Shown: one piece after another, positions 7,664 through 54,816 of the stretch
How the letters are laid out: every line of letters starts with the position of its first letter
Position numbering within the stretch: position 1 is the first letter of the stretch
Source: an uncultured Ignavibacteriales bacterium
Lineage (GTDB): Bacteria > Bacteroidota > Ignavibacteria > Ignavibacteriales > Ignavibacteriaceae
Assembly (NCBI GenBank): GCA_903929035.1
Contig: CAIYTF010000002.1
Coordinates: 1 to 64,000 of the forward strand
Reading direction: 5' to 3'
DNA length: 64,000 nt
Program-made: the position numbers and the translations under genes
The notes under the pieces: model-generated
Databases searched by the model: none
Seen by the model: only the letters and a program-made list of their open reading frames with translations
Told to the model about the DNA's origin: nothing

Positions 7664-7666
7664 TCC

Positions 7667-9160: not shown

Positions 9161-9181
9161 TTTGCAAGAATCCTGACAGTT

Positions 9182-12140: not shown

Positions 12141-12392
12141 TGAATATATTAGCTTTAAACCTCTAAATATACTCAAAAAAAAGCACAATGACCACAGATT
12201 TTCATAATTTAGAATTTTGCCAACAATCCGGTACAAGTGGTACAAATGGAATTGGACAACTTAAAAATGGCTAATAGATTACAAATAAATGGGTTATGAA
12301 GAATCGGAATTAGAAGTTTTACACAACTTGCCACGATATTTCTAATTTGAGTGCTACTATTTCAAAAAAAAATCGTAACTGTTTAGCTTATC

Positions 12393-12417
12393 TAACTACT
12401 TGTAAAATAAGTAGTTA
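12393..12417. repeat. Perfect inverted repeat in long AT-rich intergenic region
   Basis: TAACTACTT-GTAAAAT-AAGTAGTTA (9 bp arms, 7-nt loop). Confidence 0.6.
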
Positions 12418-12601
12418 CAAATATCAAAAATTAAGCATACAAATATATCAAATTTATAAGTGCTTATAATATAACGGCTTATATTTTTAGGCATTTTTTG
12501 CGAAAAAAATTGAATATTTTGTAAGTGTATGATATTCAATAGGTTACATCGGTTGCAGAGTACCTAAACAGTTACAAAAAATCATTTATTTTATTTTTCG
12601 C

Positions 12602-12630
12602 TTGACATTAGTTCAAGTTCGTATTATTTT
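12602..12630 (+). promoter_or_regulatory. Putative sigma70-like promoter upstream of yceI-like gene
   Basis: TTGACA (12602-12607), 17-nt spacer, TATTTT (12625-12630). Confidence 0.4.
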
Positions 12631-12678
12631 AACTTAAAGCATTTAATTAAATTCAATAAAAATATATATGAGGTCTCT

Positions 12679-13269: not shown

Positions 13270-13307
13270 AGTTAGCCCTGTTAAACATTATCCATATCTC
13301 TATCAAG

Positions 13308-13342
13308 AACCCCCTGCTGAAATATGCAAGGGGTTTTTTGTT
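13308..13342 (+). terminator. Rho-independent terminator after yceI-like gene
   Basis: AACCCCCTGC...GCAAGGGGTTTTTTG hairpin plus T-run. Confidence 0.75.
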
Positions 13343-13468
13343 TTAATATTTATTTCTTTAGCTCTTGGAAATATTGGTTCAATAACGGATAGTGCAGATA
13401 ATCCAATTGGGGCTTACCTGCAATGAAGTAAATCATATTTACAGTTTATACATAAATATTATTGGATA

Positions 13469-27485: not shown

Positions 27486-27503
27486 TAACTTTTTTTAAGC
27501 TCA

Positions 27504-29036: not shown

Positions 29037-29043
29037 AAATGAA

Positions 29044-30207
29044 TTAGCGGTACTTCAGAATAGACTGCAGTCCTATATGCGCCGCTTCATTTTGCGGATT
29101 TATTTTAATTGCCCACTCATACATTGTTTTAGCTGCATCGAAGTTGCGTTCTCGTGAAAAGACATCTGCCAAGCCCACGCAAGCTGGTGATGATTCCGGA
29201 TAAACTGTCAAGGCTTCTTCAAACGACATTCGGGCTTCATTCAAGAGGTTAAGTTTCAATTGCGCGGAACCTTTAAAATTTAATAAACGGGACATCATCA
29301 CGCAATCGGCATCGTCACGCTTGCGAAGTTCATCTTCCGCGGCAGTAATTTTTTCCAATGCACTGTCAAAAGCATCTTTAGAAAAGAGATCGAATGCTTC
29401 GCTTATCATTTGTTCAACGAATTTCAATATCTTGGAACCCTGGAAAATAGAACTTGTTTTAGGAAGTTTATTTAATCCTCCAAGCGCAAATTTGTTATCG
29501 GGATTCAAGCGTATAGCTATCTCGAACATTTTTTTTGCTTCATAATCTTTGTTCTCTATATATAGTATTTCGCCCAGTCCTGCATAAGCCTGGGAAGATT
29601 CCGGATTGACAGTTTTAGCTTTCTCAAAGTAAGTTCGTGCCATCTCTTGATTATTTTTAGCCATATAGATAAAAGCCCTAAAATTTAATATTGAAGCATA
29701 TTGTTCTTTATATGTTTCTTCAAGCTCTTGCACGCTCTTTAATGCCGAAGAGTAATCTTTACGAGAAAAATCATTGTATGCCGATTCAAGCAGCTGGTCA
29801 CTCCGGTGTGCATCCAAACCATCCTGCAAAGTTGCTTCAACTTTTTGCAGCAAAAGGCGCGCGTTCTGATTCATATCATCGTTCTTTAATGCCCATTGCA
29901 ACATAACTTTGGCATTTTCCAATTCGCCAAGTTGAAGAAATGTTTTTCCTAAGTACAAACAGGCATCTGTAGATTCCGGATTTTCTTTCAGTGCTGCTTC
30001 ATAAGATGGAAGCGCGGCATCAAAATTTCCCTGATTATATAAAATACTGCCGCGAAGCATAAACAATTCCTCCTTTGATAGACCTGCACTTTTCTCGAGC
30101 GGAGTAAATGCATTTTCTGCTTCATTAAGCAGTGCTAATGCCTTATCGTGATTATTTTCTTTTGATTCACGAATCGCGCTTTGCAGGCATTCTAAGTATC
30201 GATTCAT
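29044..30207 (-). CDS. Tetratricopeptide repeat protein
   Basis: Multiple TPR units (LYNQGNFDAALPSYEAALKENPESTDACLYLGKTFLQLGE...). Confidence 0.88.
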   Translation of the reverse strand: MNRYLECLQSAIRESKENNHDKALALLNEAENAFTPLEKSAGLSKEELFMLRGSILYNQGNFDAALPSYEAALKENPESTDACLYLGKTFLQLGELENAKVMLQWALKNDDMNQNARLLLQKVEATLQDGLDAHRSDQLLESAYNDFSRKDYSSALKSVQELEETYKEQYASILNFRAFIYMAKNNQEMARTYFEKAKTVNPESSQAYAGLGEILYIENKDYEAKKMFEIAIRLNPDNKFALGGLNKLPKTSSIFQGSKILKFVEQMISEAFDLFSKDAFDSALEKITAAEDELRKRDDADCVMMSRLLNFKGSAQLKLNLLNEARMSFEEALTVYPESSPACVGLADVFSRERNFDAAKTMYEWAIKINPQNEAAHIGLQSILKYR

Positions 30208-36243: not shown

Positions 36244-38403
36244 TTACTTTATAATCTGGCTTGATTCGAACCCTTTAATTTCCTTTTGCAGAAATGCCAG
36301 CAAAGCATCTTTTTGATATTTCGGAGAATTTAATAAATCAATAAAATTTTGCAGATAATTTTGCCATGCAATCGAATTTTCTATTAGTTTCTGTAAACTT
36401 TTTAAATCCAATTTGCATTGTGTATCGAGAGATTTGATTGTCCTATTCTCATAAATTCGTCTCTGATATAAGGACTGGTTATTTTGGTAGTATTCTCTTT
36501 CGCGGTTGATGATGCCATCTGCCTCAATTTTGTATTTGTCAAAAGAGAGAGTTGCTTTTTGGTTACCGTGCATTCTGTAACCGCCAAATAAGCTATCAAC
36601 TGTGAATATTGATGTGATACGAAAGAAACGCATCCAAAGGTCGAGATCACCGGCGAAATTTAAATCAGGGCTTAAAAAAGCACCTGCAAGGTTCCATAGC
36701 TCCCTTCGCCAAAAGGTGCTTTCCTGCTGAATATATGGAGAATCGTAACCGAATGATAGGAATTTATTTAGATCATAACTGTTAACGAATGGAGTTATAT
36801 GTGATATTCCATTATTTTTATTCCAGAATGTTGAGCGTCCAGTCAGCCATAAAACATCGGGAGCAGATAAAAAGATATCGGCTACTTTAAAAAATGCATA
36901 AGGATGATATTTATCGTCAGAATTGAGCCAACTCATAATTGTCCCTGTTGAGCGATTGAATCCACCATTGAGAGCAGCGTATTGTCCGCCATCAGGTTTA
37001 CTCTGCCAAAAATCTATATGATCTGAGTGCTTTTTGATAATCTCTATCGAGTTATCGCTGCTCCCGCCATCCATAACAATATATTCGAGGTTTGGGTAAT
37101 TCTGGCTAAGAATTGAATCTATACATTCTTCCAAAAAAATTTCTTGGTTGAATGATGCGGTCACTATGCTAATTTTTGGGTAACTAAGTTTATTAATATT
37201 TGTAGATTTGATGAAATTTTGTTCACCGGCTGCATTATTAGGAACATTGTTTACAATTGAAGCTATATGCCGTTCAATGGGACGAAACAATTCCTCAAAA
37301 TCAAAAACTTTTGGTACGATGTTTGGGATATTTTGTTTATAATATTCTAACTGATCGTTGCCGATAGTAAGAACAAAGGGAGTATTTTTATCATAGACTA
37401 AACCTATGTTATACATTTCGATCAGATTAGACAATTCACCAATTTGATTTAAACATACAGGCAGACCATTTTGTAGGTAAGTGAATATTTTCCCTGATGC
37501 TAAGCCGATGAATTCGAGATTTTTACCATCGTAGATACCGATATTTGTGGGGTGATAGTAAGCAATTCCTAGGTCAACAGCCTCCAGTAGTTCCGTGAGT
37601 TCACTAATAGAGTTATAAGGCTCATATGAAAAGAAAACCTTTTCTTTAAGGCTGGATAACTGGAGTTTCTCCATAAATGAGTCATTGGGATATCTTGCGT
37701 GGATAACCAGAACCCATTCATTGCTCCAGTATTGGACGCTATTGATGAGGTATTCAGTGCCGCTCCACTTCGAGAGTGTGCCGGCATATAAAGCGATCTT
37801 CTTATCTTTTGGTATGCCAAGCTTATCATTTAAGAAATATGATCTATTATGGGGGTGAAATCCTTGATTTATAACAGGCATTCTGAATATTTTCTCTTTA
37901 GAGATTTTGTTCTCAACAGAAAGTTTATCCGTCCGCACATCATCTTGACAAATAGCAAAGCTCAGGTTTTTGCAAGCGTTGATTTCCGAAACTTTGAATT
38001 CATCTCCTGTTTCATCCGCGAAAAAAATTTCATACGAGATTAATCCAAGTGGTATTTTCTGAACCATTGCAATAATGGAAGCTTCAATTATTCCTCTATC
38101 AACGCATATAACAAGATCGTATTTCTTTAACGTGTTTTGTACAAAATTAATAATGTGAGTTTCATCAATAGCAGGGAGTGAAAGAAAACTAACAAAACCG
38201 ACCGTAATTTCCACTTTACTATAATTATTAAAAAGAATATGTTCGCAGTTATCGCAAATGATGCCCTGAAATATTCCCGGACGAAGAATGGAAAAAACAT
38301 CAACAAAATAACCTAATTCACATAATTTTTTTACAATAGCATACAAATTTGGATTGTTATGAATATTCCCTTCTGGGTGAATAATTAGGATTCGTTTTTG
38401 CAT
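36244..38403 (-). CDS. Double-domain glycosyltransferase (GT4 - GT2)
   Basis: N-term GT4-like (LGIPKDKKIALYAGTLSKWSGTEYLINSV); C-term GT2 (SIVTASFNQEIFLEECIDSILSQNYPNLEYIVMDGGSSDNS...WLNSDDKY). Confidence 0.87.
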   Translation of the reverse strand: MQKRILIIHPEGNIHNNPNLYAIVKKLCELGYFVDVFSILRPGIFQGIICDNCEHILFNNYSKVEITVGFVSFLSLPAIDETHIINFVQNTLKKYDLVICVDRGIIEASIIAMVQKIPLGLISYEIFFADETGDEFKVSEINACKNLSFAICQDDVRTDKLSVENKISKEKIFRMPVINQGFHPHNRSYFLNDKLGIPKDKKIALYAGTLSKWSGTEYLINSVQYWSNEWVLVIHARYPNDSFMEKLQLSSLKEKVFFSYEPYNSISELTELLEAVDLGIAYYHPTNIGIYDGKNLEFIGLASGKIFTYLQNGLPVCLNQIGELSNLIEMYNIGLVYDKNTPFVLTIGNDQLEYYKQNIPNIVPKVFDFEELFRPIERHIASIVNNVPNNAAGEQNFIKSTNINKLSYPKISIVTASFNQEIFLEECIDSILSQNYPNLEYIVMDGGSSDNSIEIIKKHSDHIDFWQSKPDGGQYAALNGGFNRSTGTIMSWLNSDDKYHPYAFFKVADIFLSAPDVLWLTGRSTFWNKNNGISHITPFVNSYDLNKFLSFGYDSPYIQQESTFWRRELWNLAGAFLSPDLNFAGDLDLWMRFFRITSIFTVDSLFGGYRMHGNQKATLSFDKYKIEADGIINREREYYQNNQSLYQRRIYENRTIKSLDTQCKLDLKSLQKLIENSIAWQNYLQNFIDLLNSPKYQKDALLAFLQKEIKGFESSQIIK

Positions 38404-38417: not shown

Positions 38418-41400
38418 TTATTTGCTTTTTATATAAATCGTGTTCCGTATAGCTTCCAGATAAGCGTGTCCATATTTTAAATCCGGTTCAAGGTGATTTC
38501 CTTCTGCCCACTCGTTCCATGCTTTAATGAAGACGAGGCGATGTTCAAAATCAGTAATATTTTCTATTTTTTGAATAGCATTTTCAAGCATTTGCATAAA
38601 TAATTCTGGAGTCGAGTTATGCAAAACCAACCCATTTGCTCCACTGCGCGGCGTGTTATCCCAGTTTGGAAATACTAATGGGTACTCATTTGGACCAAGT
38701 TTGTACGAGTTTAAAAACAAAACTAATTCTGAATAGTCATTTATTCGTGGAACACCATTTGGATTAGCGGGTTTAACATCTAATTGGGGCACTTTCATAT
38801 CGTAAAATGGAGCATTGTCCACGCAAGTCTCACATCCATATTGTTCAGGATTCTTTGCCATATGAGCAATAAAATGGAACCCCGGTAATCGTTCCTTTAT
38901 TGCAAGTTCTTGCCATATATATGTAAAGTGTTCTGCATTTGGCAGGTTTTGAGGACTGTATATAAGGAACACCAATTTACCATTAATTTTCAAATAACGG
39001 CTATCTTGGAAAGCATTTAATAAGGCATAAAAATGTGCCTGATAATCTTCTATTCCAGGATATGTTTGCTCTATTAGAATTTTGTTTGGTGCTCCGTGCC
39101 ATATCCCTGACCAAGTTTGATTTGCCCATCCTAAACAAAATGGAAAATCAGGTTTCCCTGATGATACAACATCATTAAACGGGCGTTCCAGTAAACGATG
39201 TCCGGCAAACCAATAATGCCAATAGCAGAATGCTTCAACTCCATAGTTCTTTGCTAATTCTGCTTGTGCTTCTCTGGTTTCAGGCAATCGAAGATCGTAA
39301 TATCCAAGATCGGCAGGGATGTGTGGTTGGTAGTGTCCTTCATATAACTGCTTTGCTTTTCCTACATTACTCCATTCTGTAAATCCTTTGCCCCACCATA
39401 TATCGTTTTCAGGAATTGGGTGGAATTGAGGTAAATAAAACGCGATGACGCGTGCTCTTGGATTGGATGAAAGGGCTGTATCAATTGAAACAGTTGTAGT
39501 TGATGATATCCCCATAGAAAATTGCTGATGCCCGCCTGTCGCGTTAATATGGGTTTCAAGGAGATTACCAATATTAACAATTGGGTCATTGAATATATCA
39601 TCCTTAAGAATTGTCAATAATTCATTATGAGATGGGTGTTCTGCTAAATGTATTGCCTGAGTTTTATATTCTTCTGTTAAAAAAGTACCCCAATTTTGCA
39701 TTACGAAAAATACTACACTATCAACCCCAAAAGATTTTCCGAGTTCGATAAATTGTTTCATTTCACTGAAGTTCTTTGCTTGAACAATCATACGAATAAT
39801 AAATAACATACCCTTTTTTCGTTGTGGTAACCCCGAAATGAAAGCAAGGTTTTTTAAAATTGTTTGAAAATTTCCGCCTCTCCTAATTTCTGAATAAGTT
39901 ACTTCAGTTGCTGCATCAATTGAAACCGCCACTAACTTTATTCTATCCTGTATGTTTTTAAGGGTTGTATCCCATAAATGCTGATTAAAAAGAATTCCAT
40001 TAGTATCAAGTCTGAAACCAAGTTCTGGAAATTTACTGAAGTCATATTGCAGTAATAACTTGCGGTAAGAGGCAGCTGCGAATGGATCGCCGGCACCACA
40101 GAGCCAAAGTTCTTTGAGATGCATACCTAATGAATCCAGCATATTGATTTGTGAAGTTAGCCGTTCACCGCTTTCTTTTGTGTTTATCGATATAATCGAT
40201 GTTCTACAGCTTGGGCAGCTAAGGTTACACGAAGGATCATCTTCAAAGGAAATAATCTCCGGTGTCGGTAAATTAATAATATTACCTGTAAGAATAGCAT
40301 TTCTCAAAATTGGGTTGCTAACTTCCGACTTATTAAAGAGTTGATACGGTATCTGATAGTTTAATACATTTTTGTTTTTCGGATGAGATACTTCCTGCAT
40401 TGCCGCGCATTTCGATTTATCGCAATACGAGTAATCTCCGTTAAGAATAGATTTGCGTAATTCCTGCGAAATTTCTGAGTTCCAAGCTTGATTTAGTTTT
40501 CCTCCTTCGATATTTCCTAATGTAAATGGAAGATAGCAGCAACTCGATACTTCATTATCTTGCCGAAGTTCCATATATAAAAAAGGATTAGGGCAAATAA
40601 ATTTTTTGAATTCAGTCCCATAATAAAACTTTTTATGAAACTCAATCTGGTTGTTAATTGTTTGATTTGTACTCATTTCTTTGCTGATACTTCGCAGTAA
40701 TACTTGTAAGAATTTAGATGCAGATTGCCATTCCGGCGAATCTTTTAATGCATCGTAAATTTGCTTACAAATATCAAATTCAGTTGTATCAGCTTTCCCT
40801 AATAATTTTATCTGCTCAAAGTAATCAGCATAGGAATCTCCTGCCTGCATCTTGAAAATAGTATCAATATGTGATAGTAACCTCTCGATAACAGGTATTG
40901 GTGATGGGTAGTTTTGTTTCTTTTGAAGAAGTTCGTTTCTTATTGTATAAAGGGAATTGGAAACTGCATCATCAGGAACTGACAAGTGAACTCTTGTTAT
41001 TCCGGTATAAACTTGTCTTACGATATCTTCGATTAAAGTATTGTATTCTTGCAGTATTTTCTCATCAATACAATATCCTGCATCATTTAATGAGAACAAT
41101 AGATTCTCCTTTGTTAATTCAGGAAGTAATTTTTCATAGTCTCTGATTGCATCCACCGTACGCAACAATAGTGCCCCAATTGAGACATCCCTTTTTACTT
41201 TCCATTCTTGATCAATCAAGCGAAGAGTTCCTTTAAAATATATAAGGTTCGCCGGAATACAATCAATAAAATCAGGATGAATTATCGAGAGTGCCTTATT
41301 TGAATAGTTCATTTTGGAAATGCCATATTTTTCCATAAAGGAAATTTGAAGTTCCATAAGCTCGGAAAACCGTCTAATATCTTTTGTCAAAATACATTTT

Positions 41401-44375
41401 CTGTATTCGATTTCAAGATTGCTCCCGCTAATATATTTTGAACTTCCAAATATATGCTCTATCACCCCATCACGGATATAATTTTTAAATTTTGGGAAGA
41501 GAGGCTCCTTCGTTGTTGTAATGGTATTATCTGAAATAGAGAAAATAGTTTTTACATTCAAATCCGGAACGCGATCAGTAGTGTAAAATGCTCCTAAAAA
41601 TTCATCTTTTGAAAAGTTCCTCGATAATCTGGATGCCGGAGTAGCAAAAACCAAGAAAGAGTTGGAAACATCTTCCATAATTCCGTTTCTACAGAGTACC
41701 GGAATAGCAAGTTCTTGTTCAAATGTTGGATGTACTTCTCCAGAGTAATCACGGTATTTCAACTGACTAAGAATAGCTTCAGGAGAAAATGCCGGAGTTG
41801 AGAATGCCTGAGATGTCAATAGTAGTTTCGGAATCTTGTAGTCAGGAAAAGGATACTGAAACTCTATATCTGCGAAGCCGGCTGATTTTAGAATATTTTC
41901 TAATTCTTTTTTTCCGAAAGTAACTGCTGTTTTTGAATTGTATCTGTCCTCAACACCAAAAAAAGGAATATCAACGTGATCTTCGTGGTAACCACTTAGA
42001 TATTTTAGCCCTAATTGATTTTCAATTGCGATTATTAAAACACCGGTCGCTTTCAATGCATTATATGCTATTTTTAGACATTCACCGATAGGATCTTCAG
42101 ACATAAAAAATTGGGGGCTATACTCAAGAACACCGATTAAAGTTACCACATCATATTTTTTTTGAATCCCTATGTCCTGAAAATTTGAGCAAAAAACCTT
42201 CACATTTTCCAAGTCTTTGCATCGTGCTGCTGCCGATCTTGCTCTGTCATAACTGCCTTCCACCGCGGTAACTGAAGCACCGGTTTCTCCCAGCTGTCTT
42301 GTAATTGCACCACATCCGCAACCCAATTCTAAAATATTCCATTCCTGTTGAAAGTCTATATGCCTGAGCAGGTTATGTCTTTCACGAGAGAAATGATATT
42401 CAGTTACCCAATCATTAATTTTTTTATGTAGTTCTTCTGAAAGTATTGAACGATCTTGAGTAGTAAGTATTGTTTGAAGCACAAGATTTTCGCGATCTTC
42501 ACCATCAGAATACGCGAAGTCTTTCCGGATGTCCGGCGATTGAAATACTCCATCGTGATCGCGAATGAATTTATCGATTGGTGTTTTCATTTGAGTTCCT
42601 ATTGTCAAATCCTTTTCTTGTACTAAATTTAATAAAAAATTAGTCAAATATTCCGGTTTTCCTAGATTCTTTTCCAAAAAATTGTCCTTAGCTGCTTGTA
42701 CCTCCGGTTTCGACCACCATTCTTCTGGATTGTACCTAACTGATTCGATAAAATTCGCGGCTTTGACTGGATCGGTTTGGCAAATACCCACATCTATCAG
42801 TGCATCAAAAAAGTCTTTATTATTTTCATTCAATTGATAGCTTCCTAATCTGATAAGGAGAATAGTAGGAATATTCATACTCATAGATTCAAAGTGAGAA
42901 GTGGAGAGATAATCTACTATTATCAACCGCGATTGCAGCATCCGTATTTTATTGGATTGACTGTGATCATCGATAATCATTCGCGGGATGAAATCCCTCA
43001 TTAAAAATGAGTCATTGTAATAAAGCGTCCAGTTGATCGCGTTATTATCTCCTAATGGATATTCCCGATATAGTATTTCATTCCTGCATTCAGCACTTAG
43101 GGCTTTAAAGAACTCTAATTTGAAATCGTAATAGTATTTTGCGTGCTCTCCAGTTTCAGCAAAAGAATGGGAATAATTTGAATACTTTGCATTGCCAATA
43201 GAACTCGTGTATAGTATCGAGTATTTTTTTTTAGGAATTTCATTAACTCCCTGTGAAAACTCGAATAAAGACCCCGTTGATATCTTGTGTTTAATCGGAA
43301 CTTCATAATTACCGTGGGCAGCAAAAATATCAGCGAATGAAGTTTGTTGATCAAGAATTGATGAATAAAAAGGGTATTCCGAATAATTGTGCTCATTGTA
43401 AACCACCTTAACTCCCCGTATGCTTAAGATTGCCAGTGCTATAGACTCGTTAGATTCACCTATAAAAGTTTCACTTACTACATACCGCAATTTTTGGTAT
43501 TTTCCCAATTGAAGATATAGGCTATTGAATATCGAATGAAAATCTTCTACAAACTGACGAGGCATCAGGACAGGCAATGAATAAAAAAAGAATTTATCAA
43601 AACGATCAAACCAAATTTCAGAACATTCTAACAATGCTCTTTTATCCCACGAAATACGTTCTGAAACAGGAAAAGTTGTATCATAACCAATTGAAGCTAC
43701 ATCGCCATTACTGGAGGCGACAAGTTCTTTTAATTTCGCTGAGTTAAAAAGTGCTCTCATAATTCCGACTATAGGGTCTGAATTTTCGTTAGCGTAGATT
43801 CTTGGTAAAGTGTATAATGAAGAATAATGCTCTTGGTACTCATTCCCATATCCATCGTGAAAAAAATGGAGGTAAAGACTAAAAAGCTGCTCTTGTCCAA
43901 AGTTGCTATGTTGGAAAAACCATCGGTGTTCGTCATAGTTAACCGGTATGTAAAAGTTATCAGTTGATAATAAATACGCTGAATGTTTATAAGGATCAAA
44001 ATATTTATCACAAATTTTGAACAAATCAAATACCATTGTTAAATGGCGCATCAACCCCATACTCAAAGACCTGCGCCAAAAATCATCAGATAGATTAGTC
44101 CCATTTACTTTATTCAAACTTTCCGAGAGCAGGGGAAGATACTTATTATACTTTTCCCAAAGCAGTGCATTATCAGTTCTCAAATCCTCCGGATTTTTAC
44201 GAATATATGGTGCAACTTCAATTTTAGGGAATTGAACTCGAAGTTTATGGACATCTATCAAATGATTTATGAATGGCTCGGCAATAAAAAGCGGTTCCGG
44301 TTTTTTTAGTAATTTTATACCATTAAATGAAACTATGAAACGGGCTTTCTGAAAGTCCCTCTTGTCTTTTGTCAA
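38418..44375 (-). CDS. 1985-aa fusion: LIC12162-like transferase - SAM methyltransferase - SPASM/radical SAM - WbsX (GH99-like)
   Basis: MTase motif [28 protein letters not shown]; Fe-S motif [12 protein letters not shown] (CX3CX2C); WbsX motif [30 protein letters not shown]...[14 protein letters not shown]; N-terminal assignment is tentative. Confidence 0.85.
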   Translation of the reverse strand: [1985 protein letters not shown]

Positions 44376-44421: not shown

Positions 44422-45645
44422 CTAATCATCTAAACCTGTTATGTTAACAGTATGCCGCAGTTTCCATTCACCGCCGTTCATTCCCCAAAGATGTGGGGAA
44501 CGTAAACTATCAATTTTTCTATAGAAATCATCTTCATTAACGGAGATATATTCGCAAAATTCTTTAAGATACTTGCTCGGAAATTCGCTATCGAATTTTG
44601 AAACCAAATATGCCGCCTCGGCTCTTGTTATCTTGCCGTTGCGGACTTCCTGTGAGGCATCATAGGAGGTTCTACCTATTCCAAATTTGATAAATGTTGT
44701 ATAAAAATGAAACGGAACCATTTTATCATCTATTTCCGCATATCGAGAGTATGTTCCAATTGATCTCTCGTAAGCCGGTTTAAATCCGGTGTTTTCAACT
44801 GCATAGTAATAGCATTCTTGTGGATCCCATTGTTCAAAGTAACCGAGGAACGAAACTTTAATATCTGATGATTCAATCTCTTTTACCGAAGGAGGTATGT
44901 AGGAAGAAAAATCATTTAATGTAAAGTTATATTTCTTCATAATGGTATCAATTTTTTCGCCGCCAAGAATCATATCAAGCGGGTTATCAATTGAAAAAAA
45001 AGTAGGCTTCATAAACGGATCTAAATTATCCTCAAGCGGATTACCATATTCTGCCTGATTTTCTCCGTACATAATAAGTTTTATTCCGAATTTACGTGCC
45101 AATTTCGGACCAATTATCTTTTGTCCGTGAATGAATGGTTGAAAAGGATGTCCAAGATTAAGGAATGCCAGTTTAGTTAGTAAACTGTGAACTTTACCAT
45201 TTGGAGTATATAAAAAACTGTCAATTCCTCCTACTCTTGTGAGGTTGTTAAAGTTATTCCAGCCTGCTCTTGTGAACATATTTGGGGCCCAGGTTACAGC
45301 CAATGGGTTCATTTTATATTTGTATTTTAACAAATGGGCTGCAAATGAACTATCTTTCCCACCACTGCTTGGAACCAGCACATCATAACTGCCATCTTTA
45401 CTCCTGTATTTCTCCAGCAGCTCAAATAGCTTCTCTTCTCTTAATTTCCAGTTTATTTCCTTTTTTTCTCGTGTATAACTACAGGCAGAACACACACCAT
45501 CATCATCAAAAGCGATAGTTTCTTTTTTTTCATTTATGTTTTTCATTTCAACAGTTGAATTAGGTCTCTGATTTGAAATGACACATTTCTTACAAAATTT
45601 AACAACCGCCGGTAATCCGTAAAATGTTTTCATTTTTTGATTCAT
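44422..45645 (-). CDS. N-acetyl sugar amidotransferase (PseA/WbpG family)
   Basis: CKKCVISNQRPN...IAFDDDGVCSACSYTREKKEINW, PP-loop PSSGGKDSSFAAH, AVTWAPNMFTRAGWNN. Confidence 0.9.
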   Translation of the reverse strand: MNQKMKTFYGLPAVVKFCKKCVISNQRPNSTVEMKNINEKKETIAFDDDGVCSACSYTREKKEINWKLREEKLFELLEKYRSKDGSYDVLVPSSGGKDSSFAAHLLKYKYKMNPLAVTWAPNMFTRAGWNNFNNLTRVGGIDSFLYTPNGKVHSLLTKLAFLNLGHPFQPFIHGQKIIGPKLARKFGIKLIMYGENQAEYGNPLEDNLDPFMKPTFFSIDNPLDMILGGEKIDTIMKKYNFTLNDFSSYIPPSVKEIESSDIKVSFLGYFEQWDPQECYYYAVENTGFKPAYERSIGTYSRYAEIDDKMVPFHFYTTFIKFGIGRTSYDASQEVRNGKITRAEAAYLVSKFDSEFPSKYLKEFCEYISVNEDDFYRKIDSLRSPHLWGMNGGEWKLRHTVNITGLDD

Positions 45646-45646: not shown

Positions 45647-46555
45647 TTACACTTTCATAAATTTATTGCAGTCAATTCTGGATAACTCTAACCGTTTTAT
45701 ATTGTTGCCTTGCTCCTGGTTATCAAAGACAACAGCATTATGTACATTTAATTCTGAAAGAATACTCAAAGTGGTTTGATTATATGATGAAGCGTAACCA
45801 TAAGGGAAACAAAAACTATGTTTAGTTATTTTCACAATAGATTCAAGGAATAAAAACGAGTCTTTTATTTCTCGTACCTGCTCATTATATGACAATCTGG
45901 AGAGAACTTTATGACTTACGGTATGTGACCCAATGATATTACCTTGATTTTCCAATTCTTTAATTTGTTCAACAGTTAAGTAAAAGTCTTCTTTAAGTTT
46001 TTCTTCTACAAAATATTTCTTCATAAGTATATCAAGGATTTGATCCCTGTAGTCATATTTTATGTAATAATTAAATAAACGACGGAGTTTTTTGTCGTCC
46101 TCTTCATAGTTTGTAAAAGTGTAGATGTCTTTATCAAAGTTTGCTATATTCTCTTGATCCAACATACCTTCATCAATAATATTTAGTGCCTCTTTAAGAA
46201 TAGCAGAAGAACCATATTTCCCTTTTAGGCAATGTATCCTGTGTACTCCGAGCATAGCAACAGTAGCTTCTGTATATATTCTAGTTGGAATATAAAACAG
46301 ACCCCAAAGACCTCTACTTTTAAGTTCTGACAATACAAACGAATAGTGATCTATCAATCCATCGTCAAAAGTTAGAACACAGCCATTTTTATTCTCTCCA
46401 CTCTCAATCGCTTCAAAATACTCTGTTTTACTTAGAAAATGGCTTTCCTTTTGAAAATAGTCAAGTTGTTTTCTGAAGATATTAATATCTAAATAATTAA
46501 AATGAGGAAATTCATTACTCTGTTCCCGAACATAGTGGTACATAATTATTTTCAT
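45647..46555 (-). CDS. Polysaccharide deacetylase family protein
   Basis: VLTFDDGLIDHYSFVL, IGSHTVSHKVLSRLS, FCFPYGYASSYN. Confidence 0.88.
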   Translation of the reverse strand: MKIIMYHYVREQSNEFPHFNYLDINIFRKQLDYFQKESHFLSKTEYFEAIESGENKNGCVLTFDDGLIDHYSFVLSELKSRGLWGLFYIPTRIYTEATVAMLGVHRIHCLKGKYGSSAILKEALNIIDEGMLDQENIANFDKDIYTFTNYEEDDKKLRRLFNYYIKYDYRDQILDILMKKYFVEEKLKEDFYLTVEQIKELENQGNIIGSHTVSHKVLSRLSYNEQVREIKDSFLFLESIVKITKHSFCFPYGYASSYNQTTLSILSELNVHNAVVFDNQEQGNNIKRLELSRIDCNKFMKV

Positions 46556-46557
46556 AT

Positions 46558-47388
46558 TTATCTCTTCAATAATTCCTGTTCCACTATCGGGTATTCACGT
46601 TCGAGTCCTTCTTTGATTTTCAAATAATTAAAAACTGCATTGTTCTTGAAATTATCATATAGTAATTTAATTCTGTCATATGTAGCATCTTTTCTTTTAT
46701 AGGTTCGTCCTACTGAAGTAGTCAAGGCTGTTTTTTCTACTATGAGCTCCATATTCTGGATCAATTTTATAAAATCGTTTGTCATCTGTTTTATAAGTCT
46801 ATTCCCAATCTGGTGCGGATTATCAAATGGAAATATTTCCGCTCTTGACTGATGAATAATTTTACCGGTATCAATTCCTTCATCCATATACATAAATGTA
46901 TAGCCTACACATTGAAAATTGTTTTCAACCATTGCATGAAAATTAGTTCCTGAACCAAAATAATACGGAGATATTCCCAGGTGGACATTTATAATCCGAT
47001 TTTTAAGTACCTCTAATAATCTGGAGCGAAGAATACTGCACCCATAGGTAACAATATAGTCAGGATTCAATGATATTATTTCATTTACAACAGCCTCTGT
47101 ATTAATATCATTTTTAGAGATATATTTTGTGTTACTGTTATCAATGCTTGATAGAATAATATCAGAGAAAAAATCGTATTCTGTATTGTGTCTTGAATTA
47201 AAATGGAGTTGAATGATATCTTCAAGTATTTGGTTTGATACTTGCTTCTTTCCAAGACTAAATCTGAACTCCGATTCCGCATATGTTTTAAGAACCTTGA
47301 TTTGAGGAGCATTTGAAAACATTAGTTTGAAATAATTATGCCTTATATCATCAGAAGATAATATTATGATTTGTTTTCTGGAGTTCAT
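46558..47388 (-). CDS. Formyltransferase family protein (Fmt/ArnA-like fold)
   Basis: NPDYIVTYGCSILRSRLLEVLKNRIINVHLGISPYYFGSGTNFHAMVENN...MDEGIDTGKIIHQ. Confidence 0.82.
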   Translation of the reverse strand: MNSRKQIIILSSDDIRHNYFKLMFSNAPQIKVLKTYAESEFRFSLGKKQVSNQILEDIIQLHFNSRHNTEYDFFSDIILSSIDNSNTKYISKNDINTEAVVNEIISLNPDYIVTYGCSILRSRLLEVLKNRIINVHLGISPYYFGSGTNFHAMVENNFQCVGYTFMYMDEGIDTGKIIHQSRAEIFPFDNPHQIGNRLIKQMTNDFIKLIQNMELIVEKTALTTSVGRTYKRKDATYDRIKLLYDNFKNNAVFNYLKIKEGLEREYPIVEQELLKR

Positions 47389-48023
47389 TTTTGATTTCCT
47401 GCAAACCTTATAAATTCTGCTAAAATGTTTAATCCATATTCACCGCTTTTTTCCGGATGAAATTGACATCCAAAAATGTTGTTCTTCTGAACAGCAGAGC
47501 AAAATGATATTCCCCCATACTCAGTTGTAGCTAAAATGAATTTACTATCTCTTGGTACACAAATGAAGCTATGCACAAAATACAAATCATCTTTTTCTGT
47601 TATTGACTTCAAGATCGAATTTCCCCATTTCTTTCCATTGGGCCTATGAAGATTGTTCCAACTAATATGTGGTAGTTTTTCGTTGATTGTTGCCGGGAAC
47701 TTTTCTACTCTACCTTCTATCCACCCTAGACCTTTGGAAAATCCGAATTCTTCACTCTCCTCAAATAATAACTGCATACCAAGACATATTCCTAAGAATG
47801 GCTTGTTGGTTTTTACTAATTCATAAAGTATTGCATCCAGATTTCTCTTTTTCAATTCTTCCATTGCTTTCTTGAAAGCTCCTACACCGGGAAGAATTAT
47901 ACCCTCCATATTTGACAGAACATTTTTGTCAGAACTTAAAACGGCTGTTGAATTCAATATTGTTAAAGCATTAATAATACTTTGAACATTCCCTATACCA
48001 TAGTCCACGACTCCTATTGTCAT
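47385..48023 (-). CDS. hisH: HisH-type glutamine amidotransferase subunit (locus-specific paralog)
   Basis: IGVVDYGIGNVQSIINAL, PFLGICLGMQLLFEESEE, GCQFHPEKSGEYG. Confidence 0.92.
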   Translation of the reverse strand: MTIGVVDYGIGNVQSIINALTILNSTAVLSSDKNVLSNMEGIILPGVGAFKKAMEELKKRNLDAILYELVKTNKPFLGICLGMQLLFEESEEFGFSKGLGWIEGRVEKFPATINEKLPHISWNNLHRPNGKKWGNSILKSITEKDDLYFVHSFICVPRDSKFILATTEYGGISFCSAVQKNNIFGCQFHPEKSGEYGLNILAEFIRFAGNQK

Positions 48024-48784
48024 ACCAATATCCTTACATTAATATTGTTAGCTGCCATTACTTGTTTTATCTCCTGCACTCCCGCGATTTTATAGTGCAG
48101 AATTGAAGCAACTGCAACCGCGTCACAATTTGTAACTTTGCAAACCTCAACAATATGATTAGGATTTCCGGCACCGCTTGCCGCGATAACAGGTATTCTG
48201 ACTGAATTTGTAACTTTCTGAATTAAGTCCAGATCGAAACCTTTTTGAATACCATCCTTATCTATGGAGCTAACTATTATCTCTCCTACACCGGATTTTT
48301 CCAATTCCATTGCCCAATGAATTGCATCCAACTTTGTCCTATGTTTTGCATTGTCAATAAATGCCTCCCAATAATTCCTGTTCTTTCTTGCTACAACTGA
48401 ACCAACAATAGCCTGAGAACCAAAAATTTCCACTGCTTCTTTAATAAAACCGATATCTCTGACCGCTGCAGAATTTATCGCGACCTTGTCTGCTCCGACA
48501 CTCAGTGCTTGTTTAATATCGTAAATACTCCTAATTCCGCCCCCCACCGTTAGAGGTACAAAAACTTCCCCGCAAGCTCTTTTTATAATATCAAATAAGG
48601 AGTTTCGGTCATATAGAGAAGCAACTGCATCTAAGAAGATAATTTCATCAATCCCAGCAATATAGTATTCCAGGGCAAGAAGATTCGGTTTTCCAACCTT
48701 TCGCAAGCCCTCTAAATATTTCCCTTTTATAACATATTCGTTATTAATATCTAATCTTGCTATTAATCTTTTCTTCATCATCAT
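48020..48784 (-). CDS. hisF: HisF-type cyclase subunit (locus-specific paralog)
   Basis: KKRLIARLDINNEYVIKG, PLTVGGGIRSIYDIKQALSVGADKVAINSAAV, IVSSIDKDGIQKGFD, IPVIAASGAG. Confidence 0.92.
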   Translation of the reverse strand: MMMKKRLIARLDINNEYVIKGKYLEGLRKVGKPNLLALEYYIAGIDEIIFLDAVASLYDRNSLFDIIKRACGEVFVPLTVGGGIRSIYDIKQALSVGADKVAINSAAVRDIGFIKEAVEIFGSQAIVGSVVARKNRNYWEAFIDNAKHRTKLDAIHWAMELEKSGVGEIIVSSIDKDGIQKGFDLDLIQKVTNSVRIPVIAASGAGNPNHIVEVCKVTNCDAVAVASILHYKIAGVQEIKQVMAANNINVRILV

Positions 48785-48868: not shown

Positions 48869-49633
48869 TCAGTTTTCATTCTGTCTTTCTTGCAGCAACA
48901 ATTCTGCCAGCTTAATATCAAAATGATCATCGATATCAGTAGAATCTTCTTCGGACATTAGGAAAGGGAGTGTATTCCCTGCTGTAAATGAACCGGAAGT
49001 GAGAAATAAAGCAACATCTGAAATATAGATTGCTCCGTTTGGAATGAATAATTCAGGTAAATCCTGCCGTCTTGTATTCCTTGTCTGATCACCTATAAAG
49101 TTCTGAAGAAAACCATCAGGAGTGATTGTTTTCATCCACCACGGAAATTGTTTAACCTGAGTAACAGAAATTAATGAAGTCGCTTCCGGTGTATTAGTAT
49201 ATTTGTAAATTGCCTCATCAATATGTTCTTTTCTGCGAAGCGGAGAGGTTGGCTGCAATAAAATAAAAGTTTGATATATATCATTTCTGTTATCTTTAAG
49301 CCATTGAATTGAATGAGTTACGGCATCCTCGCTTGATGACGTGTCCCGGGCTATCTCTACAGGGCGCAAAAAAGGAACAGGTACTCCATAACTTTCTGTA
49401 ACCTCAGCAATTTTAGGATCATCGGTCGAAACAATAATAGTGTCGATATATATGCTTTTTTTTGCTTCTTCTATCGTGTAACCAATGAGCGGTTTATTTA
49501 GTATAGGGATAATATTTTTATGAGGAATTCCCTTAGAACCACCCCTGGCTGTTATAATAGAGAGTATTCTGTTTCCATTAATCAATTTGCAACCTCGATA
49601 TCGTTGAACTGTTTCTGTGGATTGACATTCCAA
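48869..49633 (-). CDS. Acylneuraminate cytidylyltransferase family protein
   Basis: ILSIITARGGSKGIPHKNIIPILNKPLIGYTIEEA, FILLQPTSPLRRKEHIDEAI. Confidence 0.92.
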   Translation of the reverse strand: MECQSTETVQRYRGCKLINGNRILSIITARGGSKGIPHKNIIPILNKPLIGYTIEEAKKSIYIDTIIVSTDDPKIAEVTESYGVPVPFLRPVEIARDTSSSEDAVTHSIQWLKDNRNDIYQTFILLQPTSPLRRKEHIDEAIYKYTNTPEATSLISVTQVKQFPWWMKTITPDGFLQNFIGDQTRNTRRQDLPELFIPNGAIYISDVALFLTSGSFTAGNTLPFLMSEEDSTDIDDHFDIKLAELLLQERQNEN

Positions 49634-50718
49634 AGAGACTCGGACTTTAATGTTTCTAAAAAAAGATTATTACTATTACCTTGTCCAAATAATTCAACTT
49701 TTTTAGGATGTAGATTATAGAATTTAGTGATTCCATCAAGAATATCAGTTGTACTGTACCCACAATTATGAATTTCCTTCAGTGATGTCCTATTGTTCTG
49801 GCGTGTTCCGATATTTACAACAGGAACACCATAGTATGGAGCCTCTCTAATCCCCGCACTCGAATTACCAACAAGAAGTTTAGACATTTTTAATAATACC
49901 AGGAAATATTCAAACCTTATGGAAGGAAACACTCTGAATCTTGGATTATTTTCAAATCTTTTATATTGATTTAAAATGCATTCTGAACCCAAATCGTTAT
50001 TTGGATAAATCACTACATAATTTAATTCTGATTCCAGTACAGCATCAACAACTTGTTCAACATTCTTTGGCATTCTTCCATTTTCAGTTGTAACAGAATG
50101 AAACAATAATATAGCATATTCTTCAAATGTAATATCATACCTGTTTTTTACTTCCTCAATTGATGGCAATTTATTTGAAACCATAATGTCAATATCAGGT
50201 GAACCGATTACATAAATACTTGAACTGAGTTCTCCCATCTGTATTAATCTTTTTTTTGCTGATTCGCTGGATACAAAGTGGATGTGACTTAATTTACTGG
50301 TTGAATGTCTCAGGAGTTCATCGATAGTTCCTGAGACTTCTCCACCTTCAATATGAGCAACTAATTTATTGTTCAGTGAACCAACTATGGCACCTGCTAA
50401 TGTTTCAACACGATCTCCGTGAATAACTATCAAATCGGGTTTAATTCTTTTTACATAATCAGAAAAACCTTCAATGGTTTTTGCAAGCGTCTTATCCATA
50501 GATTCTTCTGAAGTCCAATTCACGTACATTTCGATATTTTTATAACCGCATTTTACTATTTCATCTACAGTGTAACCATATTGTGACTGCATATGCATAC
50601 CAGTAGCAAAAATGTGGACATCAAATTCTTCTGAATTCGAGGAGATCTCTATTAGCGATTTAAGCTTGCCGAAATCGGCTCTTGTTCCAGTAAGAAAGAC
50701 TATTCTTTTCTTTTCCAT
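49582..50718 (-). CDS. Hydrolysing UDP-N-acetylglucosamine 2-epimerase (NeuC/LegG-like)
   Basis: RIVFLTGTRADFGKLKSLI, IVIHGDRVETLAGAIVGSLNNKLVAHIEGGEVSGTIDELLRHSTSKLSHIHFVS, GNSSAGIREAPYYGVPVVNIGTRQNNR; start reassigned to MEKKRIVF. Confidence 0.93.
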   Translation of the reverse strand: MEKKRIVFLTGTRADFGKLKSLIEISSNSEEFDVHIFATGMHMQSQYGYTVDEIVKCGYKNIEMYVNWTSEESMDKTLAKTIEGFSDYVKRIKPDLIVIHGDRVETLAGAIVGSLNNKLVAHIEGGEVSGTIDELLRHSTSKLSHIHFVSSESAKKRLIQMGELSSSIYVIGSPDIDIMVSNKLPSIEEVKNRYDITFEEYAILLFHSVTTENGRMPKNVEQVVDAVLESELNYVVIYPNNDLGSECILNQYKRFENNPRFRVFPSIRFEYFLVLLKMSKLLVGNSSAGIREAPYYGVPVVNIGTRQNNRTSLKEIHNCGYSTTDILDGITKFYNLHPKKVELFGQGNSNNLFLETLKSESLWNVNPQKQFNDIEVAN

Positions 50719-50737
50719 AAAAATATTTATCTGACTA

Positions 50738-51772
50738 CTATATTTTTTTTGCAATGAGAAGCATTGTGTCTGACAGTCCGTTTTTATCAAGTACCGCCTG
50801 AAGTTCATCTACTGTTTTTAAGGCGCAATCGTATAATTTAGTATTTGGAAAATTACTAACAACAGCAATGCTTGAGAATATTTCTGCAATATCCTGTCCA
50901 AAACTCCATAAGGAAATTGGGTTCAAATGAGAATTATCCAAAATTATTGAAAGTGATTTTTCCGTGAAAATATGAAGATGGTCCGGCGGGTAGATATGCC
51001 TATGGGCCTGACTAGGAAAAGCTAAATTAGCAAAAGAGCTAATTGACGGATGATGAGGAACCTCAATTAATACTATTGTATCTTTTTTAAGTAATCGCGC
51101 TACTGACTGTAAAAACTCTGACGGGCGGGCTATATGCTCAAGAATATTAATTAAAGAAATAACATTCCCATCTTCAATGTTTTCCGCGATATTATTCTCA
51201 TTTAGAAACACGTTTTTAACATTTAGCCCATTTTTTTTTGCCATTGATACTTCATCAGGATCACTTTCAATACCTGTTGCATCCCATCCCAATTTTTGTG
51301 CAGCATAAATAAGTTCTCCTGTTCCGCAGCCAATATCTATCCATTTGCCTTTGGTTTTCGATCTATCACTTACAAATTTAACTTTGGGAAATGAAATATT
51401 CTCAACCCTTGATTCAAAAATGTTCTGATCAAGATAAACTTCACATTGAGCTGATTTTGGTAAATTTCGATCATTTTCGTAAAGTGCCTTTATTGAATCG
51501 GAGTTTGGAGGTGTTTTACAGAAAATGTGTCCGCAATTATCGCACTCGCAGTACTGAAAATCATAAATATTTACGAACAATGAAAAATCAGCGGAATTAC
51601 AAATAGGGCAAGAACTCAAAACTTGTTGATAGTCTTTAAGTTTCGCGGATAATTTTCTCTGTAATTCGGCAATTTTAAGTTTCCAACCTATGTCGCGATT
51701 GAGTTTTTTGGCATCAAATTGTTTCGAGCATATTCGTTCAATGTTATCTATTTTATAGGTTTTGCTATCCAT
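50738..51772 (-). CDS. Class I SAM methyltransferase with N-terminal zinc-ribbon-like region
   Basis: SCPICNSADFSLF...YCECDNCGHIFC; WIDIGCGTGELIYAAQKLGWDATGIESD. Confidence 0.87.
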   Translation of the reverse strand: MDSKTYKIDNIERICSKQFDAKKLNRDIGWKLKIAELQRKLSAKLKDYQQVLSSCPICNSADFSLFVNIYDFQYCECDNCGHIFCKTPPNSDSIKALYENDRNLPKSAQCEVYLDQNIFESRVENISFPKVKFVSDRSKTKGKWIDIGCGTGELIYAAQKLGWDATGIESDPDEVSMAKKNGLNVKNVFLNENNIAENIEDGNVISLINILEHIARPSEFLQSVARLLKKDTIVLIEVPHHPSISSFANLAFPSQAHRHIYPPDHLHIFTEKSLSIILDNSHLNPISLWSFGQDIAEIFSSIAVVSNFPNTKLYDCALKTVDELQAVLDKNGLSDTMLLIAKKI

Positions 51773-51787
51773 ATCGAACCATATTGT

Positions 51788-53746
51788 TTACAGGTAATTC
51801 AGACTATAACATAAATTCACAGGGCGAAGGTGATAAACCATTTTATTCAATTTATCTTCATCTTTGGTATAAGTCTCATTTAACAGATTGATAATTGATT
51901 GTTGATTCTCAGAAAGTGAATAAGAAACGGAAGTACCAAAAATATCACGTAGAACAGGAAAATTTATATTTAAGTTTTTTGATCCGATATTATGTTTTAA
52001 GCTAATCATACTTTCATTCAATATCTCACTCACTTCAAATAAAGTTTCTGGCAGCATCGATTCTATTAACTCCAACAGTGAATCGGTTATAACAGAAATA
52101 ACAGTTCCTTTATGTTGAAAAAAGGCACACGATAGGTGCTTATAAATTTTGTTTGACGTAAAATCATCAATATTGCAACTTTGTAAACTAATGTCCTCAA
52201 TTGAAGACGATATTTCCGTTTTGGTATCAGTAATATAATTATCGAGTAATAAACAAAAATCCATATTCTTATTTTTACTGATTGTTTGAATCAATCGAGA
52301 TTTCGGAACATTATAGAAAGCTAAAAGCTTATATATCGGGTTTAACAAACTAGTATTATGAAAAATCATTACAATAAGATGAAGCTTTCTTGCTTCCAAG
52401 TAATCATTAAAACTCATAGTGTTTGTACCTGTAATTATTTCTTCGTATTCACAGATTCTGATATTTTCATTAAATATCTCGTAGTTCCCCATACATTCGG
52501 GTATTGGCCTGAATTGAGAGGAGATTTCATATTTATCTCTGAATGTGTCTTTTTCTATCTCTGTTCCTTTCAAGATAATTGTTTGCAGAAGACAAAACTC
52601 ATCCATACCCCAATCAATCAACTCAAAAATAGCTTTTATATGAGATTCCAAAGTTTCGCGAGGTAATCCAAGCATTAGATCTGCACAGCATCTGATACCT
52701 TTCTGCTGCTGATATTCCTGAATAATTCTATAGCTATCAATTTTGATATTTTTTCTTTTTATCGCTTTAAGTGTTTCTTGATTCATTGATTGAATCGCAA
52801 TCCTCATTATTACCGATCCACTCTCTAATGGAAGAAGATTCTCTATTATTATGTCCCATTTATTTTTGCCGGTAGAAGAATAAATATATTTAGGAAAACT
52901 ATACTTTACCTGACAATCGCTTATATGTCTGATAATTTCTGCATCTCTTTTGTACATAGCAAAATTTGAATCCGCTATTTCAAGAATCAGGCTTTGAAAA
53001 TTTTCGCGATGGATTTTATTTGAGATATATGATAGTTCTTCTTTTACTCTATCTATATTCAAATTGCATAATTTGGAGAAGGATTTATTCCCTTGCTGAC
53101 AAAATGCACACGTAAAAGGACAACCTCTGTTTGTTTCAATAAGAGGAATAGTATTCTTTTCGAAGAATTTATCCATCAACCCTGCAATATATGGTGATGG
53201 GATATTGTTAAATTCAGCATTTGAGAAATTACAATCCCTATTTTCTCCGGTAAAATTATATTTATTTTCCGATTTTAAGTTTTCTTTCGATATAACAGAA
53301 TGAATATTTTTTTGTTTTAATATCCTTATATCCCTGCATTGGAGAAACATATTTATGATTAATGCAGATGGAGCCTCGCCTGCATTCAAAACGTACAAAT
53401 CTATGTAAGGATTGTCGTTTAAGAAGTCCCTTTGTTTTTTTTCATCAAGACTAATATTTGGACCACCCATTACGGTAAGAACATTATTATTATGTTCTTT
53501 CACTTTTTTTGTGAATTCAAGATTTAAATTTAAGTTCCACATATAGTTACTCATCATCAGCACATCAGGCATTTTATTCTTAAGTGCAGTATTTAATTCA
53601 TCAGGGTACTTAAAGAGCTGAATTTCTATCTGATTTCTGAATATTTGCTTTAGATAACCGCCAATATAGCCGATTGCCAACGGAAAATGTCTGTTTTGGG
53701 ATGCAATTCCATATTTATGAGTTAGCTGAGCAAGATAGATCAACAT
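51788..53746 (-). CDS. B12-binding-domain radical SAM protein
   Basis: N-terminal Rossmann-like B12-binding region (VLMMSNYMWN..., VMGGPN) and TNRGCPFTCAFCQQG (CX3CX2C). Confidence 0.87.
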   Translation of the reverse strand: MLIYLAQLTHKYGIASQNRHFPLAIGYIGGYLKQIFRNQIEIQLFKYPDELNTALKNKMPDVLMMSNYMWNLNLNLEFTKKVKEHNNNVLTVMGGPNISLDEKKQRDFLNDNPYIDLYVLNAGEAPSALIINMFLQCRDIRILKQKNIHSVISKENLKSENKYNFTGENRDCNFSNAEFNNIPSPYIAGLMDKFFEKNTIPLIETNRGCPFTCAFCQQGNKSFSKLCNLNIDRVKEELSYISNKIHRENFQSLILEIADSNFAMYKRDAEIIRHISDCQVKYSFPKYIYSSTGKNKWDIIIENLLPLESGSVIMRIAIQSMNQETLKAIKRKNIKIDSYRIIQEYQQQKGIRCCADLMLGLPRETLESHIKAIFELIDWGMDEFCLLQTIILKGTEIEKDTFRDKYEISSQFRPIPECMGNYEIFNENIRICEYEEIITGTNTMSFNDYLEARKLHLIVMIFHNTSLLNPIYKLLAFYNVPKSRLIQTISKNKNMDFCLLLDNYITDTKTEISSSIEDISLQSCNIDDFTSNKIYKHLSCAFFQHKGTVISVITDSLLELIESMLPETLFEVSEILNESMISLKHNIGSKNLNINFPVLRDIFGTSVSYSLSENQQSIINLLNETYTKDEDKLNKMVYHLRPVNLCYSLNYL

Positions 53747-53754
53747 ATTATTTC

Positions 53755-54816
53755 TTAATTCTTGTTCGGATTTGTTATATCTGCCTGGGTTAAATGAATA
53801 TCCGGCTCAATATCCCGCGAAGCAACATTACCCAAAATCACAGGAAATTGTTCTGCCCGTATTTCTCCTGTTCCTGGTCGTTTCACCCACAAATTGTCAG
53901 TTGTAAAAATATCTCCGCGTTTTACCGGTTTGATTGTAACAACTGATGCATAAGCAAAATCAATTGTTGGCTTTTCTTCTGCAACAGGACCTTTTTTACC
54001 ATCTCTTGCAAGTCTTACTATTTTTGATGCAACAATTAGTTCCTTACATACATCGGGGTCCATAGAGCAGATTATATCCGGCCCGGTGCGTTTCATACTG
54101 TCAGTGAAATGTCTTTCCAGAATTGAGGCACCTAATGCTACGGAGGCAATACAAGGATAATTAGTAATCGTATGGTCTGACAAACCAACAACCGCATCGG
54201 GAAAAGCTTCTGATAATTCATTTATCGCATTTAGTCTTACAATTTCAGGCGGAGTAGGATATACATTTGTGCAATGAAGCAGAGCAAATTGAATCTTAAA
54301 TTCCCTAAAAATATTTACTGCTTTGCTAATGCTTTCTATTGTATTCATACCTGTTGAAAGAATAACTGGCTTCCCGTATGCTGCTATATGCCGCAATAAA
54401 GGATAATTATTACATTCTCCGGAGCCAATCTTAAATGCAGGAACATTCATATCTTGCAGCCTAATTGAAGCGGCTCTGGAAAATGGTGTTGATATGAATA
54501 TCATTCCTTTTCCCATTACATATTGCTGCAATGATCGTTCATCCTGTTCATTCAATGCACATAATTCCATAATTTCATAAATGGAAATATTAGCGTTCCC
54601 TGGTATTACTTTCTTTGCGGCACTGCTCATTTCATCTTCAACAATATGAGTCTGGTGCTTAATAAACTCAACACCTGCTTTTGCTGCAGCATCAACCATT
54701 TGCTTTGCTACTTCAAGTGAGCCGCCGTGATTAATTCCCAATTCAGCAATAACTAAGGGATCGTAATCGTATCCTATTTTTCTCCCCGCTATTTCAATAT
54801 ATGGTTTCATCGTCAA
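53755..54816 (-). CDS. N-acetylneuraminate/legionaminate synthase family with C-terminal SAF domain (NeuB/LegI)
   Basis: VIAELGINHGGSLEVAKQMVDAAAKAGVEFIKHQTH, FKIGSGECNNYPLLRHIA, LSTGMNT, GLSDHT, SAF-like VKRGDIFTTDNLWVKRPGTGE. Confidence 0.94.
   Translation of the reverse strand: MTMKPYIEIAGRKIGYDYDPLVIAELGINHGGSLEVAKQMVDAAAKAGVEFIKHQTHIVEDEMSSAAKKVIPGNANISIYEIMELCALNEQDERSLQQYVMGKGMIFISTPFSRAASIRLQDMNVPAFKIGSGECNNYPLLRHIAAYGKPVILSTGMNTIESISKAVNIFREFKIQFALLHCTNVYPTPPEIVRLNAINELSEAFPDAVVGLSDHTITNYPCIASVALGASILERHFTDSMKRTGPDIICSMDPDVCKELIVASKIVRLARDGKKGPVAEEKPTIDFAYASVVTIKPVKRGDIFTTDNLWVKRPGTGEIRAEQFPVILGNVASRDIEPDIHLTQADITNPNKN

Follow-up and report, generated by a model that had tools for sequence, protein, structure and literature searches.

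A long gene in a nonulosonate locus

The stretch of DNA analyzed here (the window, 64,000 nt from an uncultured Ignavibacteriales bacterium) includes, between 24.5 and 54.8 kb, a locus of glycan genes in which one open reading frame encodes 1985 amino acids (P0001, 38418..44375). This gene and the genes given below with coordinates between 36244 and 54816 are on the minus strand. The initial annotation had taken the frame to be a single uninterrupted one, and that is what we find at exactly these coordinates: there are 0 internal stops over 1985 codons, an opening that has a probability of about 1e-48 given the frequency of stop triplets in the window. The gene starts with a TTG, the only start codon near its 5′ end, five codons past the upstream stop.

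Directly upstream lies the gene for a WbuX-type N-acetyl sugar amidotransferase (44422..45645; TIGR03573, 332 bits), and beyond it come a polysaccharide deacetylase, a formyltransferase, HisH and a WbuZ/HisF-like protein (45647..48784), a sugar amidation set. Then follow a CMP-nonulosonate transferase (PseF-like, with a score below the cut-off) and a NeuC UDP-GlcNAc 2-epimerase (48869..50808), and finally a UbiG-like methyltransferase, a KedN5-like B12-dependent radical SAM protein and a NeuB-like nonulosonate synthase (50738..54816). The next gene downstream of the fused one encodes a 719-aa glycosyltransferase with a GT2 and a weak GT1/GT4 domain (36244..38403). The locus also holds several large glycosyltransferases with TPRs, and TPR-rich proteins with GT1 or GT2 domains adjoin it at 24525-30207. 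The flanks are ordinary: one has genes for chorismate-binding and TPP enzymes, the other a formiminotransferase gene.

Two details of these neighbors are worth recording. The B12-dependent radical SAM gene (51788-53746) is only distantly KedN5-like, below the cut-off, and it is kept in L003, a gammaproteobacterial locus described below. Between 49582 and 51772, the NeuC frame overlaps the UbiG-like frame by 71 bases and the CMP-transferase frame by 52, and the start sites have probably been called too far upstream.

Could an assembly or sequencing error have joined separate genes? The host genome is a 3.36-Mb draft in 222 contigs (rated 100% complete), and this is the sole four-module case that we have found, both of which leave room for an artefact. 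But the gene is located inside an 84-kb contig, far from both ends, and one frame stays open across three junctions. GC3 is even along all modules (0.28-0.32) and similar in the neighboring genes, and the first two modules are independently fused in another genome of the same class (G181). For these reasons we rejected an assembly-level fusion, and we regard an error of this kind as very improbable.

Modules of the protein and the segment that connects them

The four modules named in the initial annotation are all recovered by Pfam or TIGR profiles and in the order proposed. From its N-terminus, the protein reads A, B1, B2, X, C, D. Loss of catalytic residues was also checked, and the predicted active-site residues are intact in B1 (methyltransferase), B2 (kinase-like), C (radical SAM) and D (WbsX).

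Module A (residues ~10-590, 42606..44348) matches the LIC12162-type transferase family TIGR04331 with 334.9 bits, where the curated cut-off is 225, over residues 51-569 and model positions 36-569 of 585. The resemblance suspected for the N-terminal region is thus a family assignment. An AF2 model of moderate quality (pLDDT 64, pTM 0.65) was used in a fold search, in which the best matches are mostly GT-B transferases, all of them with E > 0.001, so that the predicted fold is weakly GT-B-like. Among 395 genomes sampled from the phylum, 14 have LIC12162 proteins (9 above the cut-off), mostly stand-alone proteins of ~585-610 aa. Unlike most family members, module A is fused to module B in the window and in G181, the only two cases in that sample where a LIC12162 protein is fused to other modules.

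Module B has two parts. The first, B1 (residues ~604-860, 41796..42566), is a class I SAM methyltransferase with the motif LELGCGCGAI that matches Methyltransf_12 over residues 682-780 (E 1.4e-10), which bears out the methyltransferase noticed at about 42.3 kb. The second, B2 (residues ~861-1150, 40926..41795), goes unrecognized by Pfam models, even with the threshold relaxed to E 5, and it had been overlooked. In an alignment of the window module with its relatives (alignment A1, five proteins), Asp1038, Asn1043 and Glu1057-Trp1058 of B2 are invariant, that is, an invariant Asp followed by an invariant Asn and a D-x-E-W motif. A plain methyltransferase was the first reading of module B; the alignment with relatives encoded on plasmids, together with the published work on the O7 polysaccharide of K. 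pneumoniae, led us to replace it with a methyltransferase-kinase. The methyltransferase part of the original description stands.

In K. pneumoniae O7, the N-terminal half of ORF6 adds first a phosphate and then a methyl group to the end of the glycan in vitro, and its kinase domain escaped recognition by sequence searches (PMC11231755). The SAM-site residues of ORF6-O7 are Y28, Y66, G91, G93, E112 and Y158, and its mutated catalytic Asp is D441 (PMC11231755). We compared module B with ORF6-O7 by residue positions and shared architecture, not by direct alignment. Numbered within module B (P0002), the window has Y22, Y60, G85, G87, E106 and Y152, the same six residues at a constant offset of 6. 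All six are invariant in the five aligned proteins, and in a Pseudomonas relative (L113) even the residue numbers are identical to those of ORF6-O7. The invariant Asp1038 (D438 in P0002, Asp443 in L113) corresponds to O7 Asp441, a match by alignment position only. The comparison suggests that module B is a methyltransferase-kinase of the O7 type, which forms a methylphosphate cap. Because the kinase-like half is present, its likely product is a methylphosphate and not a simple methyl group, a prediction that borrows its chemistry from the characterized relative. The AlphaFold model of module B is poor (pLDDT 38, built from two sequences).

Module C (residues ~1237-1610, 39546..40667) was delimited with Pfam and NCBIfam profiles and alignment A3. 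The initial annotation had placed a SPASM-like cysteine segment before a radical SAM domain at about 40.2 kb. The order holds, and the cysteine segment is better described as an N-terminal twitch/SPASM domain, an arrangement already present in NCBIfam as NF033640. The SPASM match (residues 1261-1319) is above the Pfam cut-off, and the Radical_SAM match (residues 1382-1516, E 2.3e-5) scores 25.0 bits against a Pfam cut-off of 29.5. The profile of the module retrieves radical SAM structures, and both the CX3CX2C motif (Cys1383, Cys1387 and Cys1390, 40206..40229) and a GDP motif show no variation among four relatives (alignment A3). As in the NF033640 proteins, a cysteine-rich domain precedes the radical SAM core, but the module is not a member of that family because it scores 59.5 bits and the curated cut-off is 170. 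Its conserved motifs point to radical chemistry.

Module D (residues ~1640-1980, 38436..39458) is the WbsX/GH99-like domain expected at 38.4-39.5 kb, and here the match to PF14307 is full-length (440 bits, E 1e-131, residues 1643-1976, model positions 1-350 of 350). Its NEWAE motif carries Glu1955 and Glu1958, a pair that is invariant in alignment A4. The EWxE glutamates are the catalytic pair of GH99 (PMC11025385). Like the GH99 endo-mannosidases, module D keeps this pair; its sequence similarity to the solved GH99 enzymes is only weak (E 0.03), and so is the alignment that puts NEWAE on their NEWHE. The motif would be consistent with GH99-type cleavage or transfer.

Between the kinase-like part and module C, there is just segment X (residues ~1152-1236, 40668..40922), a connector of ~85 aa with counterparts at the N-terminal end of stand-alone WbsX proteins. 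X forms the C-terminal end of the G181 A+B protein, and the unfused WbsX proteins of G181 and of a Desulfuromonadales locus (L004) begin with it. The similarity holds between the window and the G181 WbsX protein (E ~6e-11), between the G181 WbsX protein and L004 (E 2e-10), and between L004 and the G181 A+B protein (E 2e-8), while a reversed-sequence control gave nothing better than E 0.5. Altogether, we have located copies of ~85-120 aa at 40668-40922 in the window, and at L135 12383-12745, L004 12195-12539 and L136 2263-2538. Within the 395 phylum genomes, X occurs in the genome of the window and in G181 only. X has no Pfam model and no clear match among solved structures, and it appears to be a new, undescribed segment.

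Because X both ends the A+B protein and begins separate WbsX proteins, it may be a docking element, a guess that we make from its distribution. A bolder version would be that X docks to itself, joining A-B to the separate WbsX proteins in the relatives, and that in the window this complex became one assembly-line chain, in which sugar transfer, capping with methylphosphate, radical chemistry and trimming all take place on a single nonulosonate glycan. We give this bolder version a small chance. A small connector that travels between glycan enzymes could explain how the separate enzymes of such a locus are held together.

The modules in other genomes and the role of the fusion

The most informative relative is L003, from a gammaproteobacterial metagenome-assembled genome, where A, B, C and D are four adjacent genes on the same strand in the order of the window. 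Their identities to the window are 36% for A, 57% for the methyltransferase and 32% for the kinase part of B, 34% for C, and 53% for D. These four genes sit behind genes for a B12-dependent radical SAM protein, a UbiG-like methyltransferase and NeuC, all three of which are also in the window.

Other genomes have parts of the set. In G181, from the same class as the genome of the window, A and B are fused in one frame of 1254 aa that adjoins two genes, one NeuB-like and the other of the CTP_transf_3 type, with identities of 26% for A, and of 70% (methyltransferase) and 47% (kinase part) for B; its WbsX protein is separate, ~8 kb from A+B, and 71% identical to module D. In L004, A (51%) is directly followed by WbsX (67%), and both come after a set of NeuB-like, CMP-transferase, WbuZ, HisH and WbuX genes resembling that of the window. 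In L005, C and D are neighbors. Because identity varies by module, as it does between A and B of G181, the modules have been exchanged between loci and may act on different sugars in different places. Beside its WbsX gene (L135), G181 also has a frame that stays open for at least 3731 codons (2-11194), with several glycosyltransferase regions that resemble three separate glycosyltransferases of the window at 42-49% identity.

What would the fused protein do? We lean towards a multi-enzyme glycan-assembly protein whose four units act on one nonulosonate-containing glycan. Module A would add a sugar, possibly a CMP-activated nonulosonic acid provided by the neighboring genes, a role suggested by its family, its neighborhood and its weak fold match. 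Module B would put a phosphate on one sugar within the growing glycan and then methylate that phosphate, as ORF6 of K. pneumoniae O7 does. Module C would change a sugar by radical SAM chemistry, and module D, with its glutamate pair intact, would cleave a glycosidic bond, or it could transfer rather than cleave. The fusion would hold on one substrate four enzymes that in relatives are separate adjacent genes. The common glycan, the substrates, the activities and the order in which they act are our inference, made from modules, conserved residues and gene order that can be read directly in the sequences.

The initial annotation had suggested that the protein could couple the radical modification of a sugar with methylation and with the transfer or trimming of a glycan. 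Because L003 has the four modules as adjacent genes in the same order, coupling is the best-supported reading, although the suggestion missed the kinase-like half of module B and segment X. Alternatively, the fusion could be neutral, a merger of adjacent genes by loss of stop codons in which each module works alone and nothing is coupled. The modules of L003 are separate and presumably working, and the fused protein has an internal Met at each junction (596, 1229 and 1617), the first two being the starts of the downstream module. But for such a merger, each of three junctions would have had to fuse harmlessly and in frame; the A-B fusion occurs in G181 too, with a very different A, and C and D are also neighbors in L005. 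Multi-module proteins of this kind are, moreover, common in such loci. A neutral origin seems to us improbable, and we keep the reading in which the four enzymes are coupled.

The initial annotation knew of no description of this combination. A scan of 84,980 species genomes with six exact peptide patterns shows no second four-module fusion in its best 80 places, and none was found in 391 genomes of the class or in plasmid and phage records. A set of 97 relatives has no four-module fusion, and modules A and B and the full WbsX are all absent from it. The A and B profiles have 0 matches in viral contigs, and the matches of P0001 in viral contigs and phage records are to single modules only. Searches of the literature on LIC12162, on WbsX, and on radical SAM proteins with nonulosonic acid yielded no account of the fusion. 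In the genomes and literature searched, the combination appears to be new.

Destination of the glycan and comparison with known systems

Where would this glycan go? An O-antigen assignment is not established because there is no flippase or exporter gene in the locus. A simple hydropathy count gives no multi-pass membrane protein for the interval from 24.5 to 54.8 kb. Wzm/Wzt relatives were found neither in the window and the 20 kb that follow it nor in L003, L004 and those stretches of G181 that were read, and the only ABC2_membrane pair of the whole genome is on another contig. Eight flippase-type genes do exist elsewhere in the genome, and because of them export from another locus is possible.

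One alternative is that module B truly terminates the chains of an ABC-transporter-dependent polysaccharide, like its counterpart in K. pneumoniae O7, and that it is this protein which determines how long an O antigen or capsule becomes. The methyltransferase-kinase residues do match those of the O7 terminator, and plasmid relatives of B in Citrobacter and Pseudomonas are encoded right behind the genes for an ABC permease and an ATPase. Yet the places just listed have no Wzm/Wzt relative, the lone ABC2_membrane pair is elsewhere, and a long coiled-coil ruler would hardly fit because only the ~85 residues of X separate the kinase part from module C. With no ABC transporter found, we keep O-antigen termination only as a rival, and a rather doubtful one.

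Another alternative is that the protein helps to build a glycan not for an O antigen, but on flagellin or some other cytoplasmic protein. This glycan would bear phosphate and methyl groups, for which there is a precedent in Aeromonas AH-3, where flagellin has a nonulosonate-linked glycan whose HexNAc is variably phosphorylated and methylated (PMC7874193). The window opens with a flagellin gene (133-987) and a FliS-like gene (1087-1428), further flagellin genes are on other contigs of the host genome, and the lack of multi-pass membrane proteins in the locus would fit such a destination. On the other hand, the flagellin gene is surrounded by unrelated genes at a distance of more than 20 kb, a search with PF01973 found no Maf-type transferase, and the eight flippase-type genes could serve export from another locus. 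We consider this destination unlikely, if somewhat less so than chain termination. For the multi-enzyme assembly protein that we favor, the evidence suggests that the four modules work together on one sugar chain, either on the surface or bound to protein. Gene order and fusion tie two poorly understood families, the LIC12162 transferases and WbsX, to nonulosonate loci, and also to a methylphosphate-forming enzyme of known chemistry, which offers concrete substrates to test.

The closest characterized system is ORF6-O7. In both proteins, a methyltransferase is followed by a kinase domain invisible to Pfam, within a large multi-module glycan protein. Unlike ORF6-O7, the fused protein has a LIC12162 transferase before module B, and a radical SAM module and WbsX after it, and it comes with no evident coiled coil, no GT2 modules and no genes for an ABC transporter. 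The Pseudomonas L113 protein, which combines the methyltransferase and kinase-like part with two GT2 domains, is beside Wzm/Wzt-type genes. This arrangement is also that of ORF6-O7, where the terminator likewise comes with two GT2 modules. The idea of a bifunctional methyltransferase-kinase is also that of WbdD (E. coli O9a and K. pneumoniae O3). The O7 type of kinase differs from WbdD in sequence and structure (PMC11231755), and the profile of module B did not match any WbdD structure.

As a kind of object, the protein is not new because other genomes have large proteins that combine WbsX with methyltransferases, or methyltransferases with radical SAM domains. Examples are G161 (1454 aa; methyltransferase, GT9, WbsX, TPR and GT2), G172 (1840 aa; GT9, WbsX, GT2s and GT1), G328 (GT2, methyltransferase and WbsX in one protein) and G122 (1761 aa; methyltransferases, TPR and SPASM-radical SAM). 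In G122, the 1761-aa protein (L157 5413-10695) is adjacent to another of 1139 aa (10725-14141), with a B12-binding radical SAM domain, TPR and a second radical SAM domain. Like G161, G172, G122 and the 3108-aa protein of G206, the window protein puts WbsX, methyltransferase, glycosyltransferase or SPASM-radical SAM units in one chain; unlike any of these four, it has its own set and order of modules. It appears to be a new combination in a known style.
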